A stretch of 64,000 bases of DNA, from contig NZ_FXAM01000001.1 in assembly GCF_900155475.1 (NCBI RefSeq), forward strand, positions 2,157,501 to 2,221,500, read 5' to 3'. Below are positions 5,201 to 54,693 of this stretch, in pieces; the first letter of the stretch is position 1; each line of letters opens with the position of its first letter. The translations under genes were made by a program, and so were the position numbers. The notes under the pieces are model-generated. The model was not told the origin of the DNA and made no database searches. It saw only the letters and a list, made by a program, of their open reading frames with translations. The stretch comes from Methylomagnum ishizawai. Lineage in GTDB: Bacteria > Pseudomonadota > Gammaproteobacteria > Methylococcales > Methylococcaceae.

Positions 5201-8200
5201 CGGTGCCGGTCCTCACCACCACTTGCTTGGACAGGGCCGTGGTGGCGTCCAGCGAATTGGGCACCTGATACTGGTTCGCCAGCAGCACATCGCGCCCGGC
5301 CTGGAGCTGGTAGCTCCAGGAATAGCCCGGCTGGATCACATCCTGGAAGCGCAGGGTGCCGGGCTGGTCGGGTAGGACGATATTGAGCGGATCGGGCAGG
5401 GCCGCGATGGCGAAGCCGTCGCTGAGGGCGGCGTTGATCTTGAGGTCGCCGCCCGCGTCCAGGCGCAGATAACCCGGCACGCCGTCCCAGCGCCATAGCG
5501 CCGTTTGGGTGCCGGTGGCGGGGTCGGTGGCTTTCGCCATGAAATCCCACACGCTGTTGAGCGCGAGGTCGCCGCTATTGCGGATATCGAGGCCCGGTGC
5601 CAGCAACACGCCCGCGCCGGAATGATCCGCCGGGGCTTGCGCCTGGGCCATGAAGGCGGCGGTGTCGGCTTGGTATTGGGCGATGGCGGCGGCATCGATC
5701 ACGCCGACGCCGGTATAGACCCGCGTGGCTTCCAGCACGGTGCGGGCGCTGCCGGTGATCCGGGTGTCGATGGCGCTGGCGTTGACCGCGCCCGTCGCCT
5801 CGTCGCGCCCGGTGCGTAGATGCACCGAGCCGCCATCCCCACCCGCGCCGCCGGAAACATCGAGGGTCGAAGCCGCCGCCAGGTCTAGCCGCCCGGAATG
5901 GGTGTCGTCCAGGCCGGTCGCCACGGTGTCCAGGGTGACGCTGCCGCCTTTTTCCCCGGCGCTATGGGCATGGGCGTCGATGGCCGCGCCGGAGGTGAGG
6001 GCGATGCCTTGGGCAGCCTGGACCGAGACCGTCCCGGCGGTCGCGCCCGAGGCGTCGATGCGGCCCGCGATCCGGGCCGAGCCTTGGTCCACCGCGAGAT
6101 CGAAGCGGTGCGCGGTCAGGGTTTGTCCCGCCGCCAACATCACATTGCCGGTGCGCTGGCGGATCGACACCATGTCGGTGAAGCCCGCCGCCGCCAGTTT
6201 GGCGTTGAGGCCGGACAAGGCCGCGCCGCTGTCCTGGTCGGCGGTGGAGCCGGTCGCCACCACATCCAGCGTGAACCGGCCCGCCCGCGAACCCGTCGCC
6301 GGAGCGTTGGCGCTGAGGTTTCCATTCCAATCGAAACGGCCTTGCGGAGCTTGCACGGCGAGGCTGCCCGCATCGCTGGTCTGGTCGCTGCCCGCCGCGA
6401 CCGTGGCTCCCGCAAGCTTGAGACTGGCCCCGCTCTCCAGGGCGATATTGCCCTGCGTGGCGCTCAGGGTAACTTGGCCCGCCGGGACATAGCGGGTTTG
6501 GCTGCCGATGGCGACCGCCCGCCCTGAAACGTCAATCGCCGTGCCGGAAGCCAGGGTTAAATCGCCGCTCCGGGCCGTGAGGTTCAGCAGGCCGGCAGGC
6601 AGGTCGAAGCGCCCGGCTCCGGCGATGCTGTCCGCCGTGAGCTTGAGGCTGACGCCCAGGCCGGTGGTTTGGGCCGCATCGGTCGGGGCCGGGGTCGCAC
6701 CCAGGGTAAGCTTGTGGCCGCTGGCGTCGATGGCGAGGGTCGCGCCGCTGTCTCCGCTGATATGCCCGGCGTTCAGGGTCAAATCGCCCGCGACCGCGAG
6801 CTGGCCTACGGTGGGGCCGGTGCTGGTGCTACCCGCCGCGGTCTGGGGAGCGGCTTGGGCCAGCAAGGCTTCGTTGGCGTTGAGGTTGACTTGGCCGAAG
6901 CCGGTGATGGCGTATTGGCCGCCGCCCAGTTCGATGCGTCCGGCGTCGAGGTTCAAGCTGCCGTCGCCGCTGCCGGTCGCGTGGGTGGTGGCGGCGGCGG
7001 GGTTGCTCCACGCCAAGGTTCCGGCGCTCAGGTGGGCCGTGTTGCCTGTGCCATAGCCATTGAGGGCGGCGGCCTCCAGGCTCAGGGTTTTGGCCGAGAC
7101 CGACACCTCGCCATAGAGGTTGATGGCCCCGGCGCTGATGAGGCGTAAATCGTCCACGGCGAGCTGGGTGCCGGACAGCGCCAAGCCGCCGGTATGGGCG
7201 GGGGCATCGCCCAGGCTGATCTGGCTGGACTTGAGCGAGAGCGCCCCGCCCCGCATGGCGAAACTGCCCGCGAAACGGGTGTCCTGGGTGGAATCGAGCA
7301 GGATGGAGCCTGCCGATTGCAACCGCGCCCCGCGGGCGACGCTGAGGACGCCGGTATCGCCGGTGGTGGTGGGGTCGCGGACGACTTCGACTTGATCCAG
7401 GGAGGACACCCGCAGCAAAGCGCCGTCGCTATTGGCCGGGGCGTCGCCCGCGACCCGGTTCGATACCAGCAGAGTGTCGGCCTTGCCGCCGGTGCTGCCG
7501 GTGCTGGCCACCACCGCCCCGGCTTCGATTTTCACCTCGTCCTTGGCGGCCAGGATGATTTCCCGGCCCGCGAGGTCGGCATCGCCGGAAACCGTCACGC
7601 TGTCCGCCGTCACGCTGATGCGCTGGCCCTTCGCTTCCTGGCTGCGCAAACCGCCCAGCAACAGGCTTTCCACGCCCAGCCGGTCCAGATCGTCGGCCAG
7701 CACGGCCACCGTGCCTTGCGGCTGTTGGGTCAGCCCGGCGGCTTGGCCGACCACGGCCAGATGGTCGGCGCTGATATCGACCCCGCCGCCCCGGCCCCCC
7801 ACGGCGGCGGGGGCGTAGACGCTGGCGTCCAGGGTCAGGGCCGTGGCGGCGGACAAGGCGAGGCTGCCCGCGTCCATGGGCAGGCGCGGCACCGTGCCGT
7901 TGTCGCTTTTCGCGGCCTGGGCGGTGAAGAAGCTATTGGCCGAATAATCGTGGTATTCCGAATAGAGGCGGGCGGTGGCACCCGGCGCGACCGCGAAGCC
8001 CTGCCAGCGGGCGTCGCGCAGGCCGGTGTCGGCGACTTGATAGCGGCCCGCCACCACGGTGGAGCCGTCCGCCAGTTGGTAGGATTGGCCGGGGTTCAAG
8101 TCCCGCGTGCCGGTTTCCGGCGTTACCAGATAGGCGCCGGGCAACAGGGCATAGTGCGCGGGCAGCAAGGTGTAATCCCCGGCGGGCAGGCCCGAGCCGC

Positions 8201-11200
8201 CGCTCAAATGCACGCTATCGCCCACTTGCAGGCCGGAAGCCGGGAATTCCAAAGGATCGTAGGGCGTGGAAATTCCCCGCACGCCCGGAATCACCGCGAA
8301 CTTGGCGGAGAACGCGGCGTCGGTCGGGTCCAGCACATCGTTGGAACCGCCCGGCCCGGTGATGAATTCGTAGGCGAGCAAATCGCCGCCGCCCGCAAGG
8401 TCCACGATGGCGTCGGGTTGCAGGCGCACGGTCTGGCCGTCCAGGGCGATGCGCTTTTCCGGCGGGGTGTCGATGGCCCGGTTGATCAGTCCGGTGGAAT
8501 CCAGCGGATAGAGCCAGTTCAGCCCGCCCGAACCGCGCCCGAACGGCACGGTCAGCCCCGCGCCCGACACCGAGGTCAGGCTGCCCGAGGACAATTGCAA
8601 GAGCTTGGCGGCATTGAGCTTGATCTGGCCGAAGGGGGCCACGACCACGCCGGCCTGGACGATATTGCCCGCGTTGACGGTCAGGCTGCCGCCCGCCGAA
8701 TAGACCGGGGCGCGTTCGCCGCCCGAGCTTTGGACCGACAAGGTGGCTGCGTCGCCGGTGAGGGTCAGGGCGTAGTCGCTCAGGGTGGTGGGATAGACCT
8801 GCTGGGCCAAGAGGCTCAAATCCCCGGCCAGATGCAATTCGCCCCGGTAATCCTTGGCTTCCTTGGCTTGGCGGATGCCGATGGCGCGGATATCGCCCGC
8901 GCTATTGAGCGCGACCTGGCCGAAGCCGTCGAAACTCAGCCCGCCCACTAAGTCGATGCCCTGGGCGGAAACCTGCAACCGGCCCGCGCCCGCGACCGCG
9001 TCCGGGGCCAGTTTGGACGCCAGCACGCTGGAGCCGGACAAGGTATCGACCCGGCTTTGGGTCGAACCGAGCTGGACCAGGGGCGCGACCAGCCCGACCG
9101 TGCCGCCGCTGTCCGCCGACCAGGCCAGGGTCGGGGAATCCAGGGTGATTTGCCGGTCGGCGGTCAGTTGCGCCGCGCCCTGGAAGCGGATGCTGCCGAC
9201 ATAGGCGTTGTTGATATTGACGGCGTCGGTGCGCAGGGTGAGGGTGCCGAAGCCTGCCGCGTCGATCCGCTCGGCGGAAAGTTGGCCGAGTCCGCTGAAA
9301 TCCGCCGTCGGTAAGTCCTGACCGAAGTTGAGGGTGGACGGCAGGGCCGGGCTGGCATCCGCCGCGACGATCAAGCTGCGCGGGGCGTCGGGGTTGCGGT
9401 CGTCGGGGAAGACACCGCCCGGAATCAAATCGGTGGGTTTGCCGCGCAGGGTGCCGTTCAATTCCAGCTTGAGGCTGCCGCCGCTGGCTCCGGCTCCGCC
9501 GCCCTGGGCCAGGAACGCGCCGTCGGCCACCAGTCCTTCGCCCGCGGTCAGGTGGATGCTGCCGCCATCGGAGGGGATGCTGCGCTCGCCGATGTGGGGG
9601 GTGTCGGGATCGTCGCGGAATTGCAGGGTGGCGGCGGTGCCGGAGACATCGATGCGCGAACCCGTTTCGGCCACGATGTAGCCGCGCCGCGCCGTCAGGT
9701 CCACGCTGCCGCCCGGCAAGACTTCGCCGGTGCGGAGTCCGGTGGCGTCGCGGGCCGGGGCGAAGACGCCCCGCGCCGACAAGCGGCTGTCGCGGCCCAG
9801 CCAAATCGCCTGCGCCGCGTAGAAACCATGGTCGCCCGCCGTGGGCTTGACCAGATCGAGCGCGATTGACCCGGCGGGGGCGTCGATGCCGCCCTCGACA
9901 TGGATCGAGGTGTCGGAGGTCAGCTTGACCGCGCCCAGCCGGTCCACCGCGATTTGGGCATTCTTGCCGACGCTCAGCACGCCGTCGCGGTTCTGCTCGG
10001 CGCTGTGGGCGACTTGCAGGCTCAGATTGGCCGCGCCGCGCAGGTCGTCGGGCAGGGTGATGGCATGGGTACCGGCGGGCAGATGATCCAGGGAATGCAG
10101 GCCGGTGGCGTTATCGGGCAGGGCCAGATTCCGCTGTAGCGGATGGAGTTCCAGCCCATCGGCCACGGTCAGGCCGTCGAGGTTGGCCGTGAGGCTGTAA
10201 TTGGCGAAGCCGCCGCGCCGGAAGCTGGCGGGCGACACCACCAGGGGCACCACGCCCGGTGTTTGCGGCGGGGGCGCGTCCCGGTCCGCGCCGATGAACA
10301 CCGCGCCCGAGGCCAAATCCAGGCTGCCGCCTTGTTTGAGTCCCCAGGCCGATACCGTGCCGCCCAGGCTCAAATTCGAGGGAGGGCCGCCCTGGACCTG
10401 GGTTTGGGCACGGAGTTGGATCGACCCGCCTCGCCCCGCCGTGAGTTGGGTATTCCCGGCCAGCCACGCCCCGCCGCTGGCATCGATGCGGCTGCCCGGC
10501 AATAGGGTCAAATCACCCTGCTCAGTGACGAGGCTGACGCTGCCGCCCGCGATATCCACGGTCCAGGGCTGGCGGGATTGTCCCACCGGGTCGGCGAGGT
10601 CGTTCACCCAGCGGCCTGCCACCGAAATAGCCGCTTGCGGACCCAGCACGATGGCGCTGGCTTGCGGGAGGGGTTTGCCATCGACCTCGATGGCGATGGG
10701 TTTCAGATCGACCTCGCCGCCGGGAGCGCTGATCTTGCCTTCGATATCGAAGCCGCCCGCCGCGAGGTCCAGCTTGCCGCCGCCGGGCAAGGCGAGCCGG
10801 GCGCCGCGTTCCAGGCTGAGTTTGCCATTGGTCGCGATGGCGACCTGGGTGAAGCCGGTGCCGCGCAAAGCCGCCGCGCTTAGGGTCAACGCGGCGGCGG
10901 TGGCGCTGCCGTCCGCCGCCGGGACCGTGGGGAAAACCCCGTCCGCGCCGAGGCTCGCCGCCGCTTGGGTGGCCTTGGCGAACACCACATCCTGCTGGCC
11001 CTGCAAATTGCCCTGGTTCAGGTCGATGGACAATTCTGCCCCCGGTGTCCTCGTGCCGGATTGGCGTTGCAGCCTGCCGTTGACCGTCTGGCCTTTGAGA
11101 TAGCCGTCCAACATGGCGTTATAGGCCGAGAGATTGAGCTTGCCGCCGTCCTGGCCTTCCACATAGCCCGGCTCGTAGCGCTGTAGGCCCACGCCCGCCC

Positions 11201-12977
11201 GCGCCCAGCGTTCGGTGACGCCCCATTTGCTGTGGACCCGCACGATATCGCCAAGGATGCCGGTGTAATGGCGGTTGGGATCGGCCTGGCCGATGTCGTA
11301 GAGGCGGTGGCCCGAAATCAACTGCGTGGTCTGAATGTAGCCCGAACGATAGGCCATCGAACCGCCCGAGACATCCAGCACGCTGCCGGGGCGGGCGATC
11401 AAATCGCCGCTGGAGGCGATGTTGAGGGTGCCGCCCGTGGTGCTGCGTTCGTCGATGTTGCGGGCGATGCGGGCCAGGGCGCCCGAAATATCGGCGATGG
11501 GGATATGGCCGTCGGCGTCCACGTCGCGGAGGTCCACCGCGACGGTTTTGCCGTGCAGCACGCCGTCGCGCTGCAAGGGCGCGTCGCGCAATTCGTTGTT
11601 ACGGAGTTCGACCTTGACCACGTTGCGCGACATGGGCAGGGCCACATTCTTCCCGGACACATCGATGCGGCTGCCCCGGTCCAGGTAGACGCGGCTGTCG
11701 CCTTTGACGGCGGCATTGTTGGGGTCGTCGCTGGCGGTCAGATCGACCACGCCGGAATAGGCTCGCACGCTGGACTGCGCCTGGGCCAGGATGCGCTGTC
11801 CGGCGATTTCGATGTGCGAGCGGCCCTGGGTCTGGGCATCGACGGCGGTTTCCGCTTTGTTGGCGTCGAGTTCGACCGAGGTCAGGCTGTTGGGGCCGAG
11901 CGTGACCTGGGCTTTGAGCCCGAGGCCATCGCCCGCGTCCAGGGCGCGGCGGGTGGAGAGGGGTTGCAAAGCCCCTTCGGTGTTGGCCTGCGCCCCTTCC
12001 CGCGCCAACAGCCGCACCGAGCCGTTGAGCTTGACCGAGGTGCTGGCCGAGACCAAGCCGTTCTGGTTCACCGCGAAGCCGATCAGGCTGGCGTTGCCGT
12101 GCTGGGCGATGATCTTGCCGATGTTGTTGACATCGCCGCCGGTGCCGACTTCGACCAGGAGGCCGCGGATACCGGAATCGGCGTCGGCCTGTTGCAGATA
12201 GACCTTGTCCTGGGACGCGGCCACGATGACCTGGCCGTCCGGGGCTTCGATAACGCCTTGGTTGGTGATCGAGGGCGCGGCCAGGATGATGCGGCCATTG
12301 GCGGCGTGGGTGGCGATGGTCGCCCCTTGGTCCACGAAAATCTGGATTTTGACCTTCTGGCCGTGCTGGTCCAGCACCGGATTCCCGGCGGCGTCCTTGA
12401 GGTAAAGCTGCTGGGTGGTCAGGCCCTGGGCGTCGGTGGCGGAGAGGGCGGCGCTGCCGTCCTTGCCGAAACCCTGGGCCAGGCCGAGTTGCAACACCGA
12501 GTCGCTGATGTTCAAGGTGCTGGCGACCAGGGAATTGACGTTGACCTGGGCGCTTTTGCCGAACACGAAGCCGTTCTGGTTGACCAGGTAGATTTGGCCG
12601 TTGGCGGTCAGGGTGCCGTAGATGCGGCTGGGGTCGGCTTGGTGGATGTGGTTGAGCGCCACCGAGGTGGCGGCGGGTTGCTGGAATTTGACCGTGTTGC
12701 CGACGCCGATATTGAAGCTTTTCCAATCGAGGGTGGCTTTGTCGGAGAGTTGGCGGATGGTCATGGTGTTGCCCTGCACCACCGGAGCCTGGACTTGGCC
12801 CGCGCCGGGCGCGACCAGGATATCGGCGGGCACCGGCAATTCCGCCCGGCCTGGGCGCGGCCCGCCGCCGAACAACAAACCGCCCGCCAATAGGCCACGG
12901 ATGGCCACGGCCAAGGGCAGCGGCGGACTCACCCGCGCGGCGGGGAACAGGGGATGTAGGAGGTGCTTGCGCGTCAT
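2223..12977 (-). CDS. Very large filamentous haemagglutinin-family exoprotein (TpsA of two-partner secretion)
   Basis: A 3584-residue protein. After an extended signal region (hydrophobic AVAIRGLLAGGLLFGGG) comes a TPS/haemagglutination-activity domain: 'QGNTMTIRQLSDKATLDWKS', 'NIGVGNTVKFQQP', 'HIHQADPSRIYGTLTANGQI', then the diagnostic 'VNQNGFVFG' near residue 145. The rest is a long low-complexity beta-helix with repeated GD-I/L strands (GGDIR, AAGDISL, GRDI), as expected for a TpsA fibre. Such proteins are exported through a TpsB (FhaC/ShlB-like) pore; no TpsB is in this window. An AGGTGA ribosome-binding site lies before the chosen ATG. It is followed 225 bp later by the ExbB-like gene. 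The C-terminus (NGKPGCGGDPTATN) shows no obvious CdiA-type toxin domain, so an adhesin or biofilm-matrix role is more likely than contact-dependent killing. Confidence 0.93.
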   Translation of the reverse strand: MTRKHLLHPLFPAARVSPPLPLAVAIRGLLAGGLLFGGGPRPGRAELPVPADILVAPGAGQVQAPVVQGNTMTIRQLSDKATLDWKSFNIGVGNTVKFQQPAATSVALNHIHQADPSRIYGTLTANGQIYLVNQNGFVFGKSAQVNVNSLVASTLNISDSVLQLGLAQGFGKDGSAALSATDAQGLTTQQLYLKDAAGNPVLDQHGQKVKIQIFVDQGATIATHAANGRIILAAPSITNQGVIEAPDGQVIVAASQDKVYLQQADADSGIRGLLVEVGTGGDVNNIGKIIAQHGNASLIGFAVNQNGLVSASTSVKLNGSVRLLAREGAQANTEGALQPLSTRRALDAGDGLGLKAQVTLGPNSLTSVELDANKAETAVDAQTQGRSHIEIAGQRILAQAQSSVRAYSGVVDLTASDDPNNAAVKGDSRVYLDRGSRIDVSGKNVALPMSRNVVKVELRNNELRDAPLQRDGVLHGKTVAVDLRDVDADGHIPIADISGALARIARNIDERSTTGGTLNIASSGDLIARPGSVLDVSGGSMAYRSGYIQTTQLISGHRLYDIGQADPNRHYTGILGDIVRVHSKWGVTERWARAGVGLQRYEPGYVEGQDGGKLNLSAYNAMLDGYLKGQTVNGRLQRQSGTRTPGAELSIDLNQGNLQGQQDVVFAKATQAAASLGADGVFPTVPAADGSATAAALTLSAAALRGTGFTQVAIATNGKLSLERGARLALPGGGKLDLAAGGFDIEGKISAPGGEVDLKPIAIEVDGKPLPQASAIVLGPQAAISVAGRWVNDLADPVGQSRQPWTVDIAGGSVSLVTEQGDLTLLPGSRIDASGGAWLAGNTQLTAGRGGSIQLRAQTQVQGGPPSNLSLGGTVSAWGLKQGGSLDLASGAVFIGADRDAPPPQTPGVVPLVVSPASFRRGGFANYSLTANLDGLTVADGLELHPLQRNLALPDNATGLHSLDHLPAGTHAITLPDDLRGAANLSLQVAHSAEQNRDGVLSVGKNAQIAVDRLGAVKLTSDTSIHVEGGIDAPAGSIALDLVKPTAGDHGFYAAQAIWLGRDSRLSARGVFAPARDATGLRTGEVLPGGSVDLTARRGYIVAETGSRIDVSGTAATLQFRDDPDTPHIGERSIPSDGGSIHLTAGEGLVADGAFLAQGGGAGASGGSLKLELNGTLRGKPTDLIPGGVFPDDRNPDAPRSLIVAADASPALPSTLNFGQDLPTADFSGLGQLSAERIDAAGFGTLTLRTDAVNINNAYVGSIRFQGAAQLTADRQITLDSPTLAWSADSGGTVGLVAPLVQLGSTQSRVDTLSGSSVLASKLAPDAVAGAGRLQVSAQGIDLVGGLSFDGFGQVALNSAGDIRAIGIRQAKEAKDYRGELHLAGDLSLLAQQVYPTTLSDYALTLTGDAATLSVQSSGGERAPVYSAGGSLTVNAGNIVQAGVVVAPFGQIKLNAAKLLQLSSGSLTSVSGAGLTVPFGRGSGGLNWLYPLDSTGLINRAIDTPPEKRIALDGQTVRLQPDAIVDLAGGGDLLAYEFITGPGGSNDVLDPTDAAFSAKFAVIPGVRGISTPYDPLEFPASGLQVGDSVHLSGGSGLPAGDYTLLPAHYALLPGAYLVTPETGTRDLNPGQSYQLADGSTVVAGRYQVADTGLRDARWQGFAVAPGATARLYSEYHDYSANSFFTAQAAKSDNGTVPRLPMDAGSLALSAATALTLDASVYAPAAVGGRGGGVDISADHLAVVGQAAGLTQQPQGTVAVLADDLDRLGVESLLLGGLRSQEAKGQRISVTADSVTVSGDADLAGREIILAAKDEVKIEAGAVVASTGSTGGKADTLLVSNRVAGDAPANSDGALLRVSSLDQVEVVRDPTTTGDTGVLSVARGARLQSAGSILLDSTQDTRFAGSFAMRGGALSLKSSQISLGDAPAHTGGLALSGTQLAVDDLRLISAGAINLYGEVSVSAKTLSLEAAALNGYGTGNTAHLSAGTLAWSNPAAATTHATGSGDGSLNLDAGRIELGGGQYAITGFGQVNLNANEALLAQAAPQTAAGSTSTGPTVGQLAVAGDLTLNAGHISGDSGATLAIDASGHKLTLGATPAPTDAAQTTGLGVSLKLTADSIAGAGRFDLPAGLLNLTARSGDLTLASGTAIDVSGRAVAIGSQTRYVPAGQVTLSATQGNIALESGASLKLAGATVAAGSDQTSDAGSLAVQAPQGRFDWNGNLSANAPATGSRAGRFTLDVVATGSTADQDSGAALSGLNAKLAAAGFTDMVSIRQRTGNVMLAAGQTLTAHRFDLAVDQGSARIAGRIDASGATAGTVSVQAAQGIALTSGAAIDAHAHSAGEKGGSVTLDTVATGLDDTHSGRLDLAAASTLDVSGGAGGDGGSVHLRTGRDEATGAVNASAIDTRITGSARTVLEATRVYTGVGVIDAAAIAQYQADTAAFMAQAQAPADHSGAGVLLAPGLDIRNSGDLALNSVWDFMAKATDPATGTQTALWRWDGVPGYLRLDAGGDLKINAALSDGFAIAALPDPLNIVLPDQPGTLRFQDVIQPGYSWSYQLQAGRDVLLANQYQVPNSLDATTALSKQVVVRTGTGDIDIQAGRDITFVADAQDSTKAAAVYTMGRPADYSWGDLLLGNIPGVPKPDPNMQLADYLRGLDSTQMASLLRWGYLNEYQVAWAFLAEYPTHGGNIDLSAGGDIRGIQTGQLSSDWLVRSGTWNDDPNDTGKTPTAWGINISGTTANTTNITVGDDGQPNSDSTGTPITDASGNPITDEHGNPIALNEQGNRYFNQNVGALGGGDVTVRAGGDVADLSVMIPTTGKPMGVLTTPGNGGKPNTGPTAGLDSQWLENGTVVQGGGNLAVQAGGDIRGGEFYTGQGAGLLEAGGSIRAADSGLASIVELGDARFDLKARQDVVLGTALNPTLLPQRVIPDAASGQTADFITYDPTSAVNLWSAAGHITLQGGLDAWKTVKNYSQDELAEFNLALYPGTLKAVAARGDIRIDGSINLYPSPQGQLELLAGNDLTTDNPDDNALTVNLSDADPASFPSVALPVTQLVGNADNPILLNQRLDPSNPATSVIHAATPVHSGDTPPALLVAGQGDIAVSGGSRIRFFLSKPTQVQAGRDIRNVSFYTQNLAAGDISLIQAQRDIGFDTSLDNNGNVNGLDQRIQQSGPGRLQVLAGRDINLGSSVGILSVGNLSNPALSSTGASIDILAGLSDPLDLKSFFDAYLAPDSAYLKTLALPGDDTFAQLSPADKLAYLESLPNTTQLGLVQKILFSEIKLAAAAAAKAPEGQRKALYQRGFDAIAKLFPGDQYSGDLGLVFSQIKSFSGGDINLATPGGKVDVGLAGKVAGLQKSADQLGIVVQGQGDLNAFAKGDFNVNQSRVFTMGGGDIALWSSAGSIDAGKGAKSAISAPPPTTTLDDKGNIVTLFPPIVSGSGIQAITPADGSGKQGNVYLAAPAGVVNAGEAGISGGRVVIAASAVIGASNIQASGGTVGVPTAVAPPVIPGGVAGAAAGAAKAATQSGGLDDPGKAQAENESLAKAQAVGNSLLNADVVGYGQCSVTDVRNGKPGCGGDPTATN

Positions 12978-21810: not shown

Positions 21811-24800
21811 ATGTCAGACCCGATTTTCAATCCGTTCTCCCTGGGTGGCTTCATACCGCATGGCTATTGCTTAAACTGGTCGCCGTGGCTGCTATGGACC
21901 ATGGCGTTGAGCGACGCCGTTATTTTCGTCTCCTATCTGTCCCTGCCGGTCGCCCTGGGTTATTTCGCCCGGCACCGCGCCGATTTCCCCTATACACGGC
22001 TACTTTGGCTATTCGTGGCGTTCATTCTGGCTTGCGGCATGACCCATCTGATGGGGGCGGTCGTTTTGTGGAAGCCGTTCTACTGGCTGGATGCTTTATT
22101 CCGGGCCATCACCGCCGTGGTTTCCGCCTTGACGGCCGGGATGCTGTGGCCCTTGATGCCGCAACTGCTCAAGTTTCCCAGCCGCTTCGCCCTCCAGGAG
22201 GCCAACGAGCGGCTCCGGCGGGAAGTCGCCGAACGGGGCCGGGCCGAGGCGGCCTTGAGGGAGGCCAAGGCGCTGCTGGAGCGCGGCCTCGCGGCGGAGC
22301 GCATGCGGATGGCCGCCATCGTCGAATCCTCCGGCGACGCCATCATCGGCATCGACCTGGACGGGGCCATCACCAGTTGGAATGCCGCCGCCGAAAGGAT
22401 TTTCGGCTATGCCGCCGGGGAGGCCATCGGCCAGCCGTTCCAGATGATGGTTCCCCCCGAATGGGCCGACTGGGACGGCGAGACCACGCGGCGCATCCTC
22501 GCCGGGGAAACCATCCAGAATTTCGAGACCGCGCTGCTGCATAAAAGCGGGCGCCGGATCGAGATTTCCAAGACCCTCTCGCCGATCCGGGACGGCCAGG
22601 GGCAGGTGGTCGGACTCTCCCGCATCCTCCGCGATATCACCGAGCGTAAGCGGGCCGAGGCGGCGCTGGCCGAGAGCGAGGCGCTGCTGCGCCTGTTCAT
22701 CGAGCATAGCCCGGTCGCCCTGGCGATGTTCGACCGCGAATTGCGCTATATCGCCGCCAGCCAGCGCTGGATAGCGGATTACGATTTGGGGGGGCGGGAC
22801 ATCATGGGCCGGTCCCACTACGAAATCTTCCCGGACCTTCCCGAGCACTGGAAGGCCGCCCATCGCCGCGGTTTGGCGGGCGAGGTGGTCCGTATCGACG
22901 AGGACCGTTTTTTGCGCCGGGACGGCAAGACGCTGTGGTCCTGCTGGGAAGTCCGGCCCTGGAGCCGGAGCAGCGGCGCGACGGCGGGCATCATCATCTT
23001 CAGCGATGACATCACCGACCGGAAACTCGCGGAGGAGTCTTTGCGGGCGAGCCAGCGCAAGTTATTGCAGGCCCAGTACATCGCGGGGATGGGCGATTTC
23101 GAGTGGGATATCGGCAGCAACGAGATCGCCTGGTCGGATGGCATGTACCACCTGCTGGGCTACGATCCCGGCGAAGCCATCGACTACGCCAAGGTCAACG
23201 CCAGTATCCACCATCCCGACGACTTGGCGCGGGTGACGCGCTGGTTGTACGAGGGCATTGCTTTCGGCGTGGACGCCCTCGCCCCCCATGAACACCGCCT
23301 GATCCGCAAGGATGGGACGGTCATCCATGTCCAGGCCAATGGCTGGATCGTCCGGCAGGACGGCAAGGCCGCCAAACTGTACGGCACCTGCCTCGACATC
23401 ACCGGGCGCAAGCAGGCCGAGGAAGGGCTGCGGAAGCTGTCCTTGGCGGTGGAACAAAGTCCCGCCAGCGTGGTGATTACCAACACCCGCGCCGAGATCG
23501 AGTACGTCAACGAAGCCTTCGTCAAGGTGACCGGCTATGCCCGCGAGGAAGCCCTGGGCCAAAACCCGCGCATCCTCCAGTCGGGCAAGACGCCCCGCGC
23601 GCATTTCGAGGCGCTGTGGAAAGTGCTGCGCCAAGGCCGGTCCTGGCACGGGGAATTCGTCAACAAGCGCAAGGATGGCGTCGAATACACCGAAACGGTG
23701 GTCATCGCGCCCCTCCGTCAAGCCGACGGGGAGATCACCCATTATGTGGCGGTCAAGGAGGATATCACCGACAAAAAACGCGCCCTCGACGAGCTGGAAC
23801 GCTATCGCTGCAAGCTGGAGGAACTTGTTTCCGAGCGGACCGCGCAGCTCGAAGAGGCGCGGCGGCAGGCCGAAGTCGCCAACCAGGCCAAGAGCGTGTT
23901 CCTGGCCAACATGAGCCACGAAATCCGCACGCCCTTGAACGCCATCCTGGGCCTGGTCCATACCTTGCGGCGCGATCAGCCCACGCCCGGGCAGGCCGAA
24001 CGGCTGGGCAAGGTCGATGCCGCCTCCCGCCATCTGCTCGGCGTCATCAACGATATCCTCGACATTTCCAAGATCGAGGCGGGCCGCTTGCAACTGGAGA
24101 AGGTCGATTTCCCCCTGGGGGCCATCCTGGAGCATGTGCGCTCCTTGATCGCCGAGCAAGCGCGGGCCAAGGGGCTGGATTTGAAGATGGATGGCGACAG
24201 CGTGCCGTTGTGGTTGGTGGGCGATCCGACCCGGCTGCGCCAAGCCCTGCTCAACTACGCCGGGAACGCGGTCAAATTCACCGAGACGGGTTCCATCGCC
24301 CTGCGGGCCGTCCTCCTGGAGCAGGACGCCCAGGATTTGCTGGTGCGCTTCGAGGTGGAGGACACCGGCATCGGCATCGCGCCGGAGGATTTGCCCAGGT
24401 TGTTCGGCGCGTTCGAGCAGGCCGATGCCTCCACCACCCGCAAGCACGGGGGGACCGGCCTGGGGCTGGCCATCACCCAGCGCTTGGCGCAGCTGATGGG
24501 CGGCGAAGCGGGCGCGGAAAGCCTGTTGGGCCGGGGCAGCCGGTTCTGGTTCACGGCCCGGTTGGAACGGGGGCGGGAAGACGCGCCCTTGGATGCCAGG
24601 GTTTCCTGGGAGCAAGCCGAGGCCGAATTGCGGAGGAAGCACCTGGGCGCGAGATTGCTGCTGGCGGAGGACAATGCCATCAACCGCGAAGTCGCCATCG
24701 AACTGCTGCAACGCGCCGGATTGGCGGTGGATATCGCGCTCGACGGACGCCAAGCGGTGGAGAAGGCGGAGGCCTATCCCTACGACCTCATCCTCATGGA

Positions 24801-25440
24801 TATGCAGATGCCGGAAATGGATGGCTTGGAAGCGACCCGCACGATCCGCGCCATGCCCGACCGCCGGGAGGTTCCCATCGTCGCCATGACCGCCAACGCC
24901 TTCGACGAACACCGCCGCAACTGCCTGGACGCGAAGATGAACGACTTCGTGGCCAAGCCCGTGGACCCGGAAATCCTCTACGCCATCCTGCTCAAATGGC
25001 TGCCGCCCACCGCCCCGAGGCCGGTATCCGCGCCTGCTGGCGGTGCCGTTCCGCCGGACCGGGACGGCCTGGAGCGGCGGCTCGCGGCGATTCCGGGTTT
25101 CGATGCCGGGTTCGGCTTCGCCAGCGTGCAGGGCAACATCGGTATGTATCTCCGCCTGCTGGGGATGTTCGTGCAATATCATGGCGCCGACCCGGAGCGC
25201 TGCGCCGGATATATGGCCCAGGGCGATCTCGCCGGTCTCGGGCGGCTCGCCCATACCTTGAAAGGATCGGCCGGGGCTTTGGGGGCGAAGCGGGTGCAGG
25301 AACTGGCGGGCGGCTTGAGCGAGGCCATCCGCCACGGGGTGGATAGGGCGGAAATCGGGCGGCGTTGCGCCGCGCTCGGGGATGAATTGGCTGCCTTGCT
25401 GGCGGCGTTCCAAGACGTGCTGGCGGCGCTGGAATATTGA
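21811..25440 (+). CDS. Hybrid sensor histidine kinase with ethylene-receptor-like N-terminal domain
   Basis: A 1209-residue protein from the ATG at 21811. Residues 20-125 form three membrane helices like the ETR1 ethylene-binding domain: D35, Y42, P46, C75 and H79 sit exactly ten residues on from ETR1 D25, Y32, P36, C65 and H69, and the 'ACGMTHL' stretch holds the Cu(I)-ligand Cys-His pair. Then come a coiled coil, four PAS domains (about 170-290, 294-405, 420-540, 545-660), HisKA with phospho-accepting H703 ([12 protein letters not shown]), HATPase_c ([21 protein letters not shown]), a receiver with D997 ([12 protein letters not shown]) and an HPt domain with H1148 ([10 protein letters not shown]). 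All phosphorelay residues are present. Output partner unknown. The N-terminal match is seen in the sequence; ethylene or copper binding is inferred. The ETR1 N-terminal disulfide cysteines are not conserved. Confidence 0.93.
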
Positions 25441-25447
25441 TCCGGGC

Positions 25448-27406
25448 CTAATCGGTTTCGCCCGGCTTGCAGATCAAATACCCCTGGATACCGTCCACCA
25501 AGATCGCCGCCAAGGCTTCCCGCTCCTCGGCGGTCTCGACGCTCATGGCGATGACCTTCATGTCGATCTCGTGGGCGGTCCGCGTCAGTTCCCGCAGGAA
25601 GAACTGGTTGTCCTGGTCGAGGTGGAGGTTGCGGACGAAGCTGCCGTCGATCTTGATATAGGCCGCGCCGATGGAATGCAGATAGGCGAAAGAGGCGAAA
25701 TTGCGCCCGAAATGGTCGATGGAGAAGCGGCTGCCGAAGGGCCGCAGCCGTTGGACGAAGCGCTTGGCCGCTTCGACATCGCCCACCACGCCGTATTCGG
25801 GCACTTCGAAGGTGAGGCGCTTGGCCCGCTCGGGGAAGGCTTTCAATTGCTGGCACAGCCAGTCCACGAAACCGGCGTCGCGCAGCGAACCGGGCGTGAG
25901 GTTCACCGCGTAGGCTTTGGCGAGGCTGGGGGTTCGGCCCATCCGCTCCAACACGGCCTGGACCGCGATGCGGTCGAATTCCGGGGCCAGCCCCACCCGC
26001 TCGGCCATGGGCAGGAACGTCCCCGCCGTCAGCATCTCGCCGGACTCGCCGCGCAAGCGCAGCAGGACTTCGCGGTGCATCGCCTCGCCGGGAGCCGCGC
26101 CCAGGGGCAACACCGGCTGGAAACTGAGTTCGATCCGTTCCTCGCGCACCGAGTCCTCCAGGAATTTGCGCCAGTTCCGGGCGCCGCTGGGCACGTCTTG
26201 TGGTTGGGCCGGGCTGTGGAGGTGCCAAGCGCAGGCACCCTGGGCCTGGGCCGTGCGCAGGGCGTGGTCGGCGTGGCCCAGCAGTTCCGAGGCCGTTTGC
26301 CCGGTGGCGTACATCGCCACGCCGATATGGCCCAGACTCTGGCCGTCCAGTCCGCCCTGGTCGCGCAATTGCACCAAGCCCGCGGCCAGGCGTTGGGCCA
26401 GGGCTTCCACCGTTTCCTTCTGGCCATGCGTCACGATCACGCCGAAACTGCCCCCGGCCAGGCGGGCCAAGAGGCAGCCGGTTTCCGCGGGGCAGGCTGC
26501 GCGGATCGATGCCGCCGCCTTCCTGAGCAGTTCGTCGCCGCTGACATAGCCGTGGCGATTGTTGAACTCCTTGAAATCCGCCAGTTCCATCAGCAACAAC
26601 GCGCCGCCCGCGAATTCGTCGGGGTATTGGATCAACTGCCCGAGTTGGGCATCGAAATAGCGGCGGTTGCCGAGTCCGGTCACTTCGTCCACATAGACCT
26701 GGGCACGCAGGGCGTCGGCGATGGCCGATTGGTCCGCGAACGCCTGCTTCACCCGCGCCGACATGCGGTTCATGGCCAGCACCATGTGGCGTAGTTCCCG
26801 CGTCTTAGGAATATCGTCCTGGATCGGATAGCGCCCGTCGCAAATGGCCTCGGCCTGCGCTTCCACCGAGCGCAGGCGTTTGAGGATGATATGGATCAGT
26901 CCCAGGCCCAGCCCCAGGGCGGCGGCGGTGCAGGCTGACAGCCACAGCAGGGTGTCGGCGCTGGTGCGCCAGAGTTCGGCATAGGCGAGGCCGGGATGGC
27001 TGGTCACCCGGAGCGTGCCCAGTTCCATCCAGCCATCGACCAGCAGTGCCGTGCCGGGCGGTGTTTCCAGGGGAGTCAGCTCGACGAACCAAGCCGGCAC
27101 CCCGGCGATGCCCGCCGGGTTGTTGCGTTCCAGCAGCCGCTGGCCGTCCACGCCCTCGATCACCAATTCGCGGTAATAACCCCGGTCGAAGATGGCATCC
27201 ACCATGGAGCGCGTGGTGGTCGTGTCCTTCCGCGCCAGGACCGGCGACAAAGACAGGCCCAGCGCGGTCGCGGTGTCCTGGGCGTGGGATTCCAGTTGCC
27301 GGGCCAGGTAATGGCGGGCGTTTTCGAGGCTGATGGCGAAGGTTCCCATGAAGATGAAAACGAACGACACCAGGATGATGAACACCATCTGCCGGGATAA
27401 AGTCAT
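25448..27406 (-). CDS. lapD: LapD-like inner-membrane cyclic-di-GMP receptor with degenerate GGDEF and EAL domains
   Basis: A 652-residue protein. It has a transmembrane helix (IILVSFVFIFMGTFAISLE), a LapD/MoxY-type periplasmic domain (about 30-160; RYYREL-like and 'VPAWFVELTPLETPPG'), a second helix (WLSACTAAALGLGLGLIHII), a HAMP domain, a GGDEF domain whose signature is AGGSF (inactive) and an EAL domain. The EAL has EVLLR for EALLR, DHFG for the metal-binding DDFG and an altered 'FEVPE', so it should bind but not cut cyclic-di-GMP, as LapD does. LapD holds the LapG protease when c-di-GMP is high. lapG lies 16 bp upstream on the same strand. The start at 27406 fits the membrane helix; a longer frame upstream overlaps lapG. 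Confidence 0.92.
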   Translation of the reverse strand: MTLSRQMVFIILVSFVFIFMGTFAISLENARHYLARQLESHAQDTATALGLSLSPVLARKDTTTTRSMVDAIFDRGYYRELVIEGVDGQRLLERNNPAGIAGVPAWFVELTPLETPPGTALLVDGWMELGTLRVTSHPGLAYAELWRTSADTLLWLSACTAAALGLGLGLIHIILKRLRSVEAQAEAICDGRYPIQDDIPKTRELRHMVLAMNRMSARVKQAFADQSAIADALRAQVYVDEVTGLGNRRYFDAQLGQLIQYPDEFAGGALLLMELADFKEFNNRHGYVSGDELLRKAAASIRAACPAETGCLLARLAGGSFGVIVTHGQKETVEALAQRLAAGLVQLRDQGGLDGQSLGHIGVAMYATGQTASELLGHADHALRTAQAQGACAWHLHSPAQPQDVPSGARNWRKFLEDSVREERIELSFQPVLPLGAAPGEAMHREVLLRLRGESGEMLTAGTFLPMAERVGLAPEFDRIAVQAVLERMGRTPSLAKAYAVNLTPGSLRDAGFVDWLCQQLKAFPERAKRLTFEVPEYGVVGDVEAAKRFVQRLRPFGSRFSIDHFGRNFASFAYLHSIGAAYIKIDGSFVRNLHLDQDNQFFLRELTRTAHEIDMKVIAMSVETAEEREALAAILVDGIQGYLICKPGETD

Positions 27407-27422
27407 GGCTTGTTCTCGTCGG

Positions 27423-28079
27423 TCATCGGGGTTGGCCGGGCGGCACGCCCATCCGCGCCAGCAAGCCGCGCCACAGTCCGATCCGTTCGGGGCCGCCGAC
27501 CCGTTCCTTCGCCAGCCACAGGCCCTGGACGTTGAAACTATAGATCGGTTGGAGGTCGGTTCTTTGGGTGGCGGGTTTGATGGCCGGGTCCAGGTTGTCC
27601 AGCACCCAGGGCACGGCACCGGGCGTGGCGGTATAGGTCAGCACCATATGGGCCTGGTCGAGCTTCAGCGCCTTGACGTAGACCAAGCGCAGCCGCTCTT
27701 CCGGCACCCCGAGCGATCTTAGGGTGAAGTATTTGGCGATGGAGAAATCCTCGCAATCGCCGCCGTTGGTGGCGAGCGTCTCGACCGGCGTGGCCCAGTA
27801 ATCGGCCTGGCCCCAGTGTTCGTCGTCGCCCACGAATTCGAGGCGGTTGAAGAAGGCGTTGACCTGGGCGATTTGCTCCGGCTCGGGCTTGCCCTGGTTC
27901 TGGGCGATCAAGCCCAGCCAAGCGTCGACCCGGCCACGGGCTTCCGGGCCGTAGCGTTTCCCGACCTCGGCCAGGAGACCCTGGGCCGTTCCGAGCCAGT
28001 CGGGTGGGGTGGCCGCGAATCCGGCGGTGATCAGCAAAAACAGGCAACCGATAAGCGCGGTGGTTTTGGATGGGGTCAT
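27423..28079 (-). CDS. lapG: LapG-like periplasmic cysteine protease (bacterial transglutaminase-like)
   Basis: A 218-residue protein with a signal peptide (ALIGCLFLLITAGFA). The catalytic triad is C109 (NGGDCEDFSIAKY), H144 (DQAHMVLTY) and D161 (VLDNLDP); D108 and E110 match the calcium ligands next to the cysteine in LapG. The family clips large adhesins between two alanines near their N-terminus and so releases them from the cell. The start at 28079 has a GGAAA site, and an upstream ATG does not. It is followed by lapD; the gene before it encodes a Calx-beta metzincin protein with an SSAAGG stretch after its membrane anchor, a possible substrate. Confidence 0.92.
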   Translation of the reverse strand: MTPSKTTALIGCLFLLITAGFAATPPDWLGTAQGLLAEVGKRYGPEARGRVDAWLGLIAQNQGKPEPEQIAQVNAFFNRLEFVGDDEHWGQADYWATPVETLATNGGDCEDFSIAKYFTLRSLGVPEERLRLVYVKALKLDQAHMVLTYTATPGAVPWVLDNLDPAIKPATQRTDLQPIYSFNVQGLWLAKERVGGPERIGLWRGLLARMGVPPGQPR

Positions 28080-28142
28080 GTATTTCCGGCGCTTAAGGGC
28101 CATGACAATCGAAATACACCGCGCATGGCCCTCAAGCCGGGA

Positions 28143-28215: not shown

Positions 28216-31200
28216 TCAATCGTCGTTGATGATGCTGCCGGTGGCCGTGGCGATTTTCAGGATGTAGGGCGAGGGCGAGGAGAGGTTGCCCAAGATCAAG
28301 CCGAGGGTCTCGGTCGCCTCCCTGACATTATCGCCGATCACCGGGACCAGGATGGTTTGGGTGAGTTGCCCAGGCTGGAAGCTGAGGGTGCCCGAGGTGG
28401 CGGTGTAGTCGGAATCCGCCGTCGCGGTGCCATCCTGGGTGGCGTAATCGACCGTGATGGTTTCGGTCGGGGCTTTGCTCAGGGTGACTTTGAACGGCAG
28501 GGAACTGGTGGTGCCGTCCATGCCTTCCTTGACCGAGCCATTGGCCACGATGAGGGTCGGGTTGATGAAGTTCGCGATGCTGCCCTTGCCCACGGCGGTT
28601 CTGAGGATGTAGGGCGAGGATGGGTTGCCGAGGGCCAGGGTGAAGGTTTCCGCCGCCTCCGCGATATTATCGCCGATCACCTCGACCAGGATCGTCTGGG
28701 TCAGTTGGCCGGCCTCGAAGGTCAGGGTGCCGGATTGCGCGACGTAGTCCTGCCCCGCCACTGCGGTGCCGTCCTGGGTGGCGTAATCGACCGTGATGGC
28801 CTGGGTCGGGGCCTTGCTCAGGGTGATTTTGAACGGCAGGGTGCTGGTGGTGCCGGCGTAGCTTTCGCTGGCCGCGCCGTTGGAGACGCTGACGGTGGGG
28901 TTGATGAAGTTCGCGATGCTGCCCTTGCCCACGGCGGTTCTGAGGATGTAGGGCGAGGATGGGTTGCCGAGGGCCAGGGTGAAGGTTTCCGTCGCCTCCG
29001 CGATATTATCGCCGATCACCTCGACCAGGACCGTCTGGGTCAGTTGGCCGGCTTCGAAGGTCAGGGTGCCGGATTGCGCGACGTAGTCCTGCCCCGCCAC
29101 TGCGGTGCCGTCCTGGGTGGCGTAATCGACCGTGATGGCCTGGGTCGGGGCCTTGCTCAGGGTGATTTTGAACGGCAGGGTGCTGGTGGTGCCGGCGTAG
29201 CTTTCACTGGCCGCGCCGTTGGAGACGCTGATGGTGGGATTGACGAAGTTCGCGATGCTGCCGGTGGCCGTGGCGGGTTTGAGGAGGTAGGGCGAGGATG
29301 GGTTGCCGAGGGCCAGGGTGAAGGTTTCCGTCGCCTCCGCGATATTGTCGCCGATCACCGTGACCAGGACCGTCTGGGTCAGTTGGCCGGCCTCGAAGGT
29401 CAGGGTGCCGGATTGCGCGACGTAGTCCTGCCCCGCCACCGCGGTGCCGTCCTGGGTGGCGTAATCGACCGTGATGGCCTGGGTCGGGGCCTTGCTCAGG
29501 GTGATTTTGAACGGCAGGGTGCTGGTGGTGCCGGCGTAGCTTTCGCTGACCGCGCCGTTGGCGATGCCGAGGGTGGGGTTGACGAAGTTCAGGATGCTGC
29601 CGGTCACGCTGGGAGTCCTGGCCGTATAGGCCGCATAGCTGCCGACCGGGTTGCTGAGCAGCAATTGGAAGGTTTCCGTGGGTTCGACCAGGGCGTCGCC
29701 GAGGATCGCGATTTGCACGGTCTGGGTGGTCTGGTTCGGGGCGAAGGTCAGGGTGCCGGATTGGGCGATATAGTCTTGCCCCGCCGTCGCGGTGCCGTCC
29801 TGGGTGGCGAAATCGACGGTGGTGGGGGCCGTGGAGGGGACGCTCAGGGTGACTTTGAAGGCCATGTAATTGGTGGTGCCGGTCGGTCCTTCGGTCAGCG
29901 ACGCGGCGGTGGCGATGAACGTGCTGGCGACCGCGAAGTTGGTGATGCTGCCGGTGCCGGGGTTGGTCTTGAAGGTATAGCCCGCGCTCGGGTTGCTCAG
30001 CACTAGGCTGAGGGTTTCGGTCGGTTCCTGCACGCTGTCGCCGAGGACTTGGACCCGCACCGTCTGCGTGATCTGTCCGGGGAGGAAGGTCAGGGTGCCG
30101 GACTGGGCGACGTAGTCGGAACCCGCCGTCGCGCTGCCGTCCTGGGTGGTGTAATCGACGGTCACGGTCTGGGTGGCCTTGGCGCTGAGGCTGACCGGGA
30201 ACGACAGGTAGCTGGGGGTCGCCCTGGTTTCCGCGACCTGGGCGTTGCCGACGCTGATCCCGGAGAAGCCCGCCTGGGTGAGGGTCGCGATGGCTTGGTT
30301 GTCCGCGCCGACCGTGAGCTTGGCGGTGCGGGCGACGAAGCCGGGATTCGGTTCGATTTGGTATTCCACCGTGCCGCTGCCCTGGCCGCTGGCACCGCTC
30401 GACACGGTCAGCCAGGGCGAATCGCTGGCGACGGTCCAGGCGCATTGGCTGGGCGCGGCGATGTTCAGGACCGGCCCGGTGCCGCCTTCTGGCTGTACGC
30501 TCGGGTCGGCGGGCGTCACGGAGACCTTGCAACTCGTGGAGACCCGGAAGTTCGCTACGGTGTAGGCGGTGTCGTTGAGGACGCGGGCGTTGTCGGCGTC
30601 GCAGTCGGGATTGCTCGGATTGCCGAACTGGCAGGAAGTGTTGGTGCCTTCCGCCGCGCCCAGCGGCTTGTTGCTGTAGGTCTTGAGCGGGTTGGACCAA
30701 TAGGGCAGGCGGGTGCAATTGAAGCCGCTGTTGGCGCATTCGTTGTTATACGCCATCACGGTGCGCCAACGGCCCTCGGGGTTCACGTAGCCTTTGTTGT
30801 AGGTGTAGGGCGAATTCTTGGAGGTGTCCACGAACCAGTCGTGGGTGGCTCCCATGATGTGGCCGAGTTCATGGCCGAAGGAATAGTAGCCGGTGGCGCA
30901 ATCCTGGCTCACCAGGGCATAGGCGTATTCGCTGAAGCCGGTGGAAACCGAACTCATTTGCCAGGACATCCCGCAATAGGCGGTGTTGGCGACCAGCAGC
31001 ACGGTCGCGTCGGCGTTGTAGGTATCGCGCAGGATGGGGACGTTGTCGAGGTATTGGTCGGTCTTGTTGCTGAGGCGGTAGAGGGTGTTGACCCAATCGA
31101 AACCGGTCTCGTCGTAGACGATTTCTTCGGCGTGGGCTAGCTTGATCCGCTGGTTGATCCCGCTGTTGGCGTAGTTGGTGTTGGTTTCGCTGATGGCCAG

Positions 31201-32136
31201 GTCGATCAGGGCCTGCATGGCCAGGTCGCCGCCGGCCGCCTGTTTCGCCGCCGCGTCATAGACCACCAGCACGTCGATCTGCGAGCCGTCGTCGCTGGGT
31301 GGGGCAGTCTCGTCGGCGGACGGCGCGGCGATGCCCGTCCGCGCCTGGTCCCGCGCCGGCTTGGGCTGGGTTTCTGGCAGGGTGACGGGGAGCGGGTCGC
31401 CTTCGGGGGGCAGGCTGGATTGGTCGATTTCGCGGATGCTGTGTAGTCCGTTGCCGACGTAGCGGATTTGGTAGGCACCGCCCGGATGGACCACGTTGGC
31501 CATCATCACATCGCCCTCGACCACCATGTTCACCGTGCTGAGCTGGATACCGCTCAAGCGGCCCACATAGGCCGTCTTATCCGGCCCAAGTTTGTCCACC
31601 TGCTTGATCTTGGCTTTGAAGGCGGCGTCGTTGAACAGGTTCAGGGGCAGGCTGTCGCCCTGTTTGAGCTGGGCCGCGTTCAGCCCTTGGAGATTGACCC
31701 GGACATGGCGGGTGCGGGTGGCTTCCCTGGGGGAGGCCAGGGCGCTGCGGGCCGTTTTATCGGCCACGTCGCTGAATAATTCCAGCCCAACTTCCCTGCC
31801 GCCCGCCGCCGACGAGGGCAGTTGATTGATCCTGTCGAACACGGCCCGCTGCCAGGGTTCTTCGAGCGCCCAGGAAGCCAGGACGCCGACGAGGGCACCC
31901 GTGGCGGCCCAGTATAAGGGCGCGAACCTGCCCGCCGCGTCCTGGGGCCGCCCACGGCGGTAAGCCAACCAGCACAACAGGAACGCCCCGGCGGAAAGGG
32001 CGGTTATCCCAAGCGCCAACAGCCAATCCGGCAAGGTATATGCCCAGGGGAGGTCCGTGGCCGGAGTCTCGGCTATAGCAGCGCCATGCGTTACGGCCAT
32101 CGCCAGGATAGCCGCGATCCGGGTCAAGATTTTCAT
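28216..32136 (-). CDS. Membrane-anchored metzincin metalloprotease with six Calx-beta repeats
   Basis: A 1306-residue protein. The ATG at 32136 has an AAGGAA site; a TTG two codons upstream is too close to it. It has a signal peptide (to about 22), two membrane helices (36-58 and 74-90) with a basic loop between them, then SSAAGG (108-113). Residues about 270-540 hold a reprolysin-like zinc protease with H422-E-L-G-H426-IMG-ATH432-D, a full metzincin site. After a BACON-like domain (about 540-630) come six Calx-beta domains, each with T-V-D-Y/F-A-T-Q-D-G-T-A-x-A-G-x-D-Y. Repeats 3-5 are nearly identical at the DNA level. Calx-beta domains often bind calcium, which LapG also needs. It lies just upstream of lapG and lapD on the same strand. 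No RTX or type I secretion signal is seen. Confidence 0.88.
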   Translation of the reverse strand: MKILTRIAAILAMAVTHGAAIAETPATDLPWAYTLPDWLLALGITALSAGAFLLCWLAYRRGRPQDAAGRFAPLYWAATGALVGVLASWALEEPWQRAVFDRINQLPSSAAGGREVGLELFSDVADKTARSALASPREATRTRHVRVNLQGLNAAQLKQGDSLPLNLFNDAAFKAKIKQVDKLGPDKTAYVGRLSGIQLSTVNMVVEGDVMMANVVHPGGAYQIRYVGNGLHSIREIDQSSLPPEGDPLPVTLPETQPKPARDQARTGIAAPSADETAPPSDDGSQIDVLVVYDAAAKQAAGGDLAMQALIDLAISETNTNYANSGINQRIKLAHAEEIVYDETGFDWVNTLYRLSNKTDQYLDNVPILRDTYNADATVLLVANTAYCGMSWQMSSVSTGFSEYAYALVSQDCATGYYSFGHELGHIMGATHDWFVDTSKNSPYTYNKGYVNPEGRWRTVMAYNNECANSGFNCTRLPYWSNPLKTYSNKPLGAAEGTNTSCQFGNPSNPDCDADNARVLNDTAYTVANFRVSTSCKVSVTPADPSVQPEGGTGPVLNIAAPSQCAWTVASDSPWLTVSSGASGQGSGTVEYQIEPNPGFVARTAKLTVGADNQAIATLTQAGFSGISVGNAQVAETRATPSYLSFPVSLSAKATQTVTVDYTTQDGSATAGSDYVAQSGTLTFLPGQITQTVRVQVLGDSVQEPTETLSLVLSNPSAGYTFKTNPGTGSITNFAVASTFIATAASLTEGPTGTTNYMAFKVTLSVPSTAPTTVDFATQDGTATAGQDYIAQSGTLTFAPNQTTQTVQIAILGDALVEPTETFQLLLSNPVGSYAAYTARTPSVTGSILNFVNPTLGIANGAVSESYAGTTSTLPFKITLSKAPTQAITVDYATQDGTAVAGQDYVAQSGTLTFEAGQLTQTVLVTVIGDNIAEATETFTLALGNPSSPYLLKPATATGSIANFVNPTISVSNGAASESYAGTTSTLPFKITLSKAPTQAITVDYATQDGTAVAGQDYVAQSGTLTFEAGQLTQTVLVEVIGDNIAEATETFTLALGNPSSPYILRTAVGKGSIANFINPTVSVSNGAASESYAGTTSTLPFKITLSKAPTQAITVDYATQDGTAVAGQDYVAQSGTLTFEAGQLTQTILVEVIGDNIAEAAETFTLALGNPSSPYILRTAVGKGSIANFINPTLIVANGSVKEGMDGTTSSLPFKVTLSKAPTETITVDYATQDGTATADSDYTATSGTLSFQPGQLTQTILVPVIGDNVREATETLGLILGNLSSPSPYILKIATATGSIINDD
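28561..29577. repeat. Three near-identical 339-bp tandem repeats inside the Calx-beta gene
   Basis: The stretch opening GTTGATGAAGTTCGCGATGC recurs at 28561, 28900 and (as ATTGACGAAG…) 29239, exactly 339 bp (113 codons) apart, with very few changes between copies. Each copy is one Calx-beta domain. The near identity suggests recent duplication or gene conversion, and the number of copies may vary between strains. Confidence 0.85.
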
Positions 32137-32423
32137 GGTCAATTCCTTAATAGTTAGAACTGTACTGTTTAGTGTAGCTCATGTTACGCGGTTTCATGGG
32201 TGTGGATATGCCGGGATTTCTTGTATGGTCCGGCGCAGGACTTGGCTCGGGTGCGGGAGATATGCATCATATACGATTGGTGGAATGTTACAAACGGCGA
32301 CGGCGCAAATTTTATGGACATAGCGCGGAAACCAGGGGAGAGCGCCATTTTTTCCGGCGCTGCCGAATGAATCCCGCCGCGCCTTTGATTTTTCCGACGT
32401 GGGCTGGAGAGGCCCCGACCGGG

Positions 32424-44814: not shown

Positions 44815-44880
44815 GCCGGGACGCCGTTTCCCGGTTTATGCGAAAATTTCCCTATTGTTGTGTTGACGAGGCGAATTTGG

Positions 44881-49092: not shown

Positions 49093-49319
49093 GAGAAGTG
49101 GCTCCGGAAATTTGAACAGCCGGTTAAGTGGATAAGATCAGCCCTTTCAAAGTGTAAAAATAGCCCTTCTAAATCAATGGGTTGAAAAGGCCGTTTTTCT
49201 GTGTCGAAGCGTAGGACGCCACCAACGGCGACATGGGCCACAGCAAAATCAGGGACTTACATAACCCGATTTCGCCAACCGGGTAAACCACTTTGAAAGT
49301 GGCTGGTGGATAAGATGTG

Positions 49320-49504: not shown

Positions 49505-49509
49505 GGTAA

Positions 49510-49559
<50 letters not shown>

Positions 49560-54617: not shown

Positions 54618-54693
54618 CCGGCACAGTGATACATGGGACAATTCCGCCCATAACAATCCGATCACGTTTCTAATCTGCTTCATAAGGAAAGCC

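Follow-up and report, generated by a model that had tools for sequence, protein, structure and literature searches.

The window, meaning the whole stretch of 64,000 nucleotides of Methylomagnum ishizawai DNA that was analyzed, encodes a hybrid histidine kinase whose sequence supports its placement in the ETR1_N family of copper-dependent ethylene receptors. It is probably a membrane-bound, copper-loaded receptor kinase that likely reports ethylene in a methanotroph. As a molecule, it is a further member of a known family. Conservation of the site, ethylene binding by the related AzoEtr1, the methane monooxygenase genes of the host, the over-representation of the domain in methanotrophs, and a host paralog (L002) that is paired with a response regulator count for the ethylene-sensing reading. 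The residues L45 and R98, a neighborhood in which relevant genes were not seen, an enrichment uncorrected for phylogeny, and the Methylococcales that do without the domain count against it.

Architecture of the kinase and its copper site

The ETR1_N profile (PF25487) was matched by hmmscan against Pfam with an E-value of 2.3e-34 and 118 bits at a cut-off of 27, hence the match is not a chance one. The preliminary description, made from the letters alone, had suggested exactly this domain for residues 15-125 and a profile search as its check. The search bears out the domain for residues 27-121, and the wider range additionally takes in a PHGxCxxW motif outside the model. The kinase further contains four PAS stretches (NCBIfam TIGR00229) and the tripartite output of hybrid kinases (HisKA, HATPase_c and receiver, and Hpt), all with catalytic motifs. 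The four-PAS phosphorelay that had been described is thus recovered, with the Hpt domain in addition. Two observations speak for 21811 as the start, namely an ortholog of the same genus (L063) that is 93% identical across all 1,209 residues, and a residue numbering identical to that of AzoEtr1. A search by sequence for solved structures of the kinase found none. The coordinates of all features are collected in Table 1.

Table 1. Features of the kinase gene and of its downstream neighbors, in positions of the window
Feature	Position	Strand	Basis
Hybrid histidine kinase gene, ETR1_N / 4xPAS / HisKA / HATPase / REC / Hpt, 1,209 aa	21811..25440	+	translation, profiles, ortholog
PHGYCLNW, residues 16-23, conserved periplasmic PHGxCxxW motif directly before TM1	21856..21879	+	homolog counts, N-out charge pattern
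ETR1_N three-helix membrane domain, residues 27-121	21889..22173	+	PF25487 match; AF2 model
TM1 residues D35, Y42, L45, P46 (AtETR1 D25, Y32, I35, P36)	21913..21948	+	translation, alignment
TM2 residues I72, C75, H79 (AtETR1 I62, C65, H69)	22024..22047	+	translation, alignment
Four PAS domains, residues 166 to about 654	22306..23772	+	four sensory_box stretches; PAS families
HisKA residues 694-758 (phospho-His in SHEIRTPL, 702-709), HATPase_c 804-919	23890..24567	+	Pfam, catalytic motifs
Receiver domain residues 950-1059, LMDMQMP at 995	24658..24987	+	Pfam, motif
C-terminal Hpt residues 1116-1198, AHTLKGSAG at 1147	25156..25404	+	Pfam, motif
LapD-type receptor and LapG-type protease beside a 1,308-aa Calx-beta protein with a reprolysin-like domain	25448-28103 and 28216-32142	-	

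An AF2 model of moderate confidence (8 sequences, mean pLDDT 70) places the three helices at residues 25-54, 61-85, and 89-120. Lys and Arg are absent from the N-terminal 24 residues, occur twice in the loop after helix 1, and six times after helix 3. Such a distribution is what an extracytoplasmic N terminus would lead one to expect, and it fits the topology of ETR1.

In AtETR1 of Arabidopsis, seven residues are needed for ethylene binding (PMC11819568). Five positions of the kinase, D35, Y42, P46, C75, and H79, correspond to D25, Y32, P36, C65, and H69 of AtETR1 at a constant offset of +10, as the preliminary description had stated, and the spacing of Cys and His is kept in the form C-G-M-T-H. 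We take I35 and I62 to be the remaining two of the seven, positions for which the source is reportedly Wang et al. 2006. The numbering of AtETR1 was verified against the published positions D25, C65, H69, and K91 (PMC11819568). Six of the seven binding residues are identical in the kinase (D35, Y42, P46, I72, C75, and H79), the counterpart of Ile35 being a conservative Leu45. In addition, R98 stands where AtETR1 has K91, a residue involved in receptor output. C75 and H79 are the predicted ligands of Cu(I).

Conservation of the site was counted in 186 bacterial homologs, degenerate ones excluded. H79 is kept in all 186, C75 and Y42 in 185 each, I72 in 183, P46 in 173, and D35 in 165. The near invariance of Y42, C75, and H79 shows that selection acts on the site. 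Position 45 is mostly Ile (163 homologs; Met in 12, Leu in 11) and position 98 mostly Lys (166; Arg in 5). Judged by its residues, the site of the kinase is intact, with the two substitutions L45 and R98 being conservative and uncommon.

These observations bear on two other readings. L45 and R98 are lineage-specific and, together with the order-specific subclade described below, would permit an altered specificity. The main natural ligand of the intact site might then be another π-acid gas or small alkene, such as CO or the alkenes that are co-oxidized by methane monooxygenase, which the general chemistry of a Cu(I) site would allow. This is very unlikely, since the substitutions are conservative and both characterized bacterial members respond to ethylene (PMC11819568). 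The membrane domain could also act mainly as an anchor or dimerization unit, with the PAS domains sensing redox, oxygen, or light. The presence of four PAS domains is consistent with such a division of labor, and a degenerate host paralog (L004) indicates that the fold may be retained where the site is no longer normal. An anchor would have no need of C75, H79, D35, and Y42, however, and the site residues are kept in the protein and throughout its clade, which makes this a scarcely probable explanation.

The PHGxCxxW motif is common to the bacterial proteins and lies outside the Pfam match, which begins at residue 27. H17 and C20 are both present in 87 of the 93 homologs that carry both copper ligands (C20 in 92 of 93), and the pair is found in none of the 12 homologs with broken ligands. 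Because these 12 are divergent and come mostly from one alphaproteobacterial family, the tie between motif and copper site is an association and not proof. AtETR1 is not known to have the PHG part, and the correspondence of its N-terminal Cys to C20 depends on the alignment, with two alignments giving different answers. PHGxC may contribute a second pair of metal ligands, serve as an entry point for copper, or form a disulfide in a dimer.

Host, relatives, and distribution of the domain

The host genome (5.48 Mb, 8 contigs) contains three PmoA-family genes with E-values to 1e-128, two of which score identically, an sMMO gamma chain (E-value of 1e-78), and two diiron hydroxylase (sMMO) genes in one stretch. 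Three PmoA-type genes together with a soluble methane monooxygenase identify the host as a Methylococcales methanotroph, a point on which the preliminary description had made the interest of the sensor conditional. A best named relative of the ETR1_N domain comes from a Methylococcaceae MAG.

ETR1_N is present four times in the host genome, namely in the window kinase, L001, L002, and L004. L001 (L079, 8673-10094) has the order ETR1_N-PAS-GGDEF, so that a predicted ethylene or copper input would sit directly on a diguanylate cyclase. L002 (L080, 8876-11133, near G000:C1:886000) is an ETR1_N-PAS-kinase followed by a REC-GerE response regulator with a 4-base overlap, an arrangement comparable to that of AzoEtr1 and its adjacent response regulator. 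With its partner adjacent, this pair is a better starting point for genetics than the window kinase. L004 (L081, 6975-9098), as read from its translation, consists of a degenerate ETR1_N, PAS, GGDEF, and EAL-like sequence. Herein, Phe replaces Y42 and PHGxC is lost. A P-II-like/ammonium-transporter-like pair lies near L004. Across the four genes, one input domain is thus wired to a hybrid phosphorelay, a two-component pair, and c-di-GMP enzymes.

The domain of the window kinase falls into a clade made up of Methylococcales only (support 99/92, 13 rows; 0.90 and 22 rows in a larger set). Its next kin are L064-L071, a group of proteins of roughly 1,300 residues that come from another family within the Methylococcales and of which L065 contains ETR1_N, PAS, HisKA, HATPase, two receivers, and Hpt. 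The clade, the ortholog, and these kin make the kinase an established member of the repertoire of the order.

Upstream of the kinase gene, a divergent gene encodes an HTH-cupin regulator. Downstream and convergent lie the genes of a LapD-type GGDEF/EAL protein, a LapG-type protease, and a Calx-beta/metalloprotease protein. The genes flanking the kinase include none recognized as a response regulator or as an ethylene or copper gene, and the analysis yielded neither an operon partner nor a target. AzoEtr1 alters biofilm formation, and effects on biofilms are likewise known for SynEtr1 (PMC11819568). Given these effects, the LapD/LapG neighborhood is suggestive. As a functional unit with the kinase it was rejected because the genes are convergent and synteny, among the loci compared, is limited to the same-genus genome. 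Elsewhere, the window encodes a 3,584-aa filamentous haemagglutinin-like protein of two-partner secretion (TPS, DUF3739; 2223-12977, minus strand). A SNF2 helicase, a tyrosine integrase, a DUF3987 protein, and an MmeI-type restriction-modification enzyme are encoded at 44860-57786 on the plus strand, a region that looks like an integrated defence island.

ETR1_N is not rare. It was found above the cut-off in 99 of 201 sampled Methylococcales genomes, that is, in half of them, and in 31 of 48 genera. Among about 365 other Gammaproteobacteria, nine genomes carry it, none of which has a PmoA match. PmoA occurs in 166 of the 201 Methylococcales genomes, and ETR1_N accompanies it in 94 of these 166 vs 8 of the 35 without PmoA, counts that, as all counts and tests of distribution given here, treat genomes without correction for phylogeny. 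ETR1_N is missing from the other half of the order, and in four small-genome families none of the 23 PmoA-positive genomes has it. A family from the same phylum and another class, inferred to be alphaproteobacterial, was reached via a PmoA-positive genome from the phylum draw. It has the domain in 14 of 20 PmoA-positive and 25 of 179 other genomes (Fisher p 2e-7, uncorrected for shared descent, with the PmoA-positive genomes limited to three genera). In the same class, the domain is found in only 5 of 100 genomes of the family around an AmoA-bearing genome with three identical AMO copies, which is probably that of an ammonia oxidizer. The counts show an over-representation of ETR1_N in methanotrophs belonging to two classes and not a causal link. 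This over-representation was not found in the papers searched. In the alphaproteobacterial family of G735, mostly in genus g537, weak ETR1_N matches (L103-L110) have lost Cys, Tyr, and PHGxC, and mostly His as well. By these residues, they are a non-copper branch of the ETR1_N fold.

The signal and its possible use

AzoEtr1 of Azospirillum brasilense bound 14C-ethylene when expressed in yeast, and binding by A. brasilense depends on AzoEtr1 (PMC11819568). Since D35, C75, and H79 of AzoEtr1 recur at identical positions in the window kinase, we infer, on good grounds, that the window kinase binds ethylene via Cu(I). For copper loading, the direction of the response, and the downstream target, the following mechanism is proposed. 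Cu(I) would be a constitutive cofactor that is held by C75 and H79 and environed by D35, Y42, and P46, and ethylene would bind in the outer half of the three-helix membrane bundle. Binding would shift the helices and, via the four PAS domains, which may add further inputs, change the autophosphorylation of HisKA. The phosphate would then travel from HisKA via the receiver and the Hpt at the C terminus to a response regulator elsewhere in the genome. This methanotroph would likely use such a report on ethylene because its methane monooxygenase makes toxic epoxyethane from this gas, which roots and wet soils release. Ethylene inhibits methanotrophs, probably through epoxyethane, with 3-50 ppmv inhibiting methane oxidation in soil, and in one methanotroph an epoxide system was induced on exposure to ethylene (PMC11507031).

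The host possesses both pMMO and sMMO, which is consistent with a different signal, copper itself. The kinase would report the copper supply by whether the C75/H79 site, perhaps supplied via H17/C20, is filled or empty, and the output would perhaps go to the choice between pMMO and sMMO or to other copper genes. ETR1_N is indeed more frequent across the order in sMMO-positive genomes (40 of 47 vs 62 of 154 without sMMO), nine of ten genomes in the core subclade of the window domain have sMMO, and PHGxC is lost along with the copper ligands. However, sMMO is found in only 11 of 20 genomes of the wider, 22-member subclade, and the core subclade comprises only two genera, so that its link to sMMO may reflect shared ancestry. 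This link is suggestive in the core and was not relied on. Furthermore, cyanobacteria, a planctomycete, and genomes that have no PmoA carry the domain as well, and a copper gene was not seen next to the kinase. For Cu(I) in the sensor domain of AtETR1, the dissociation constant is close to 1e-15 M (PMC6586836), as would suit a permanently bound cofactor. A copper sensor is unlikely, though a live alternative. If copper were sensed instead of ethylene, the kinase could be one of the inputs through which copper controls methane oxidation.

Ethylene is a poison for methane-eating bacteria, which makes a warning role of the receptor testable. A broader proposal, which is tentative and on balance doubtful, is that ETR1-type receptors form a widespread, unrecognized ethylene-warning system of gamma- and alphaproteobacterial methanotrophs. 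Attachment, c-di-GMP, or detoxification would be triggered before epoxyethane forms, and copper would be loaded via the periplasmic PHGxC specific to the bacterial receptors. A link between methanotrophs and ethylene receptors was not found in the openly accessible literature searched, and a 2024 article on ethylene in methanotrophs contains neither "receptor" nor "histidine kinase" (PMC11507031). Should ethylene sensing by methanotrophs be real, plants and wet soils could be sending a signal to the very bacteria that hold methane release in check. In that case, the sensor would be a single deletable gene family in culturable species.

Comparison with known systems

The output half of the window kinase, HisKA-HATPase-REC-Hpt, is that of the BarA/ArcB/TorS-type tripartite hybrid kinases, to which partial NCBIfam matches exist. 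Their sensor is unrelated, and the window kinase scores far below the equivalog cut-offs. AtETR1 shares the three-helix domain with the copper ligands C65 and H69, followed by a kinase and a receiver. As opposed to the window kinase, it has a GAF domain in place of the four PAS domains, has no Hpt, and resides in the ER membrane. SynEtr1 from Synechocystis, compared by its description, is likewise bacterial and combines an ethylene-binding domain of the copper-site type with phosphorelay signaling (PMC11819568). It differs in being cyanobacterial, in acting as a light receptor too, and in having other partner genes. AzoEtr1 is, with 525 residues and one PAS domain, considerably smaller than the window kinase, contains neither receiver nor Hpt, has its response regulator adjacent, and carries Lys98 in place of Arg98. 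Like the window kinase, it is a proteobacterial ETR1_N-PAS-histidine kinase, and D35, C75, and H79 are identically numbered in both (PMC11819568). This coincidence of numbering is a useful check, since AzoEtr1 is a proteobacterial receptor with measured ethylene binding.
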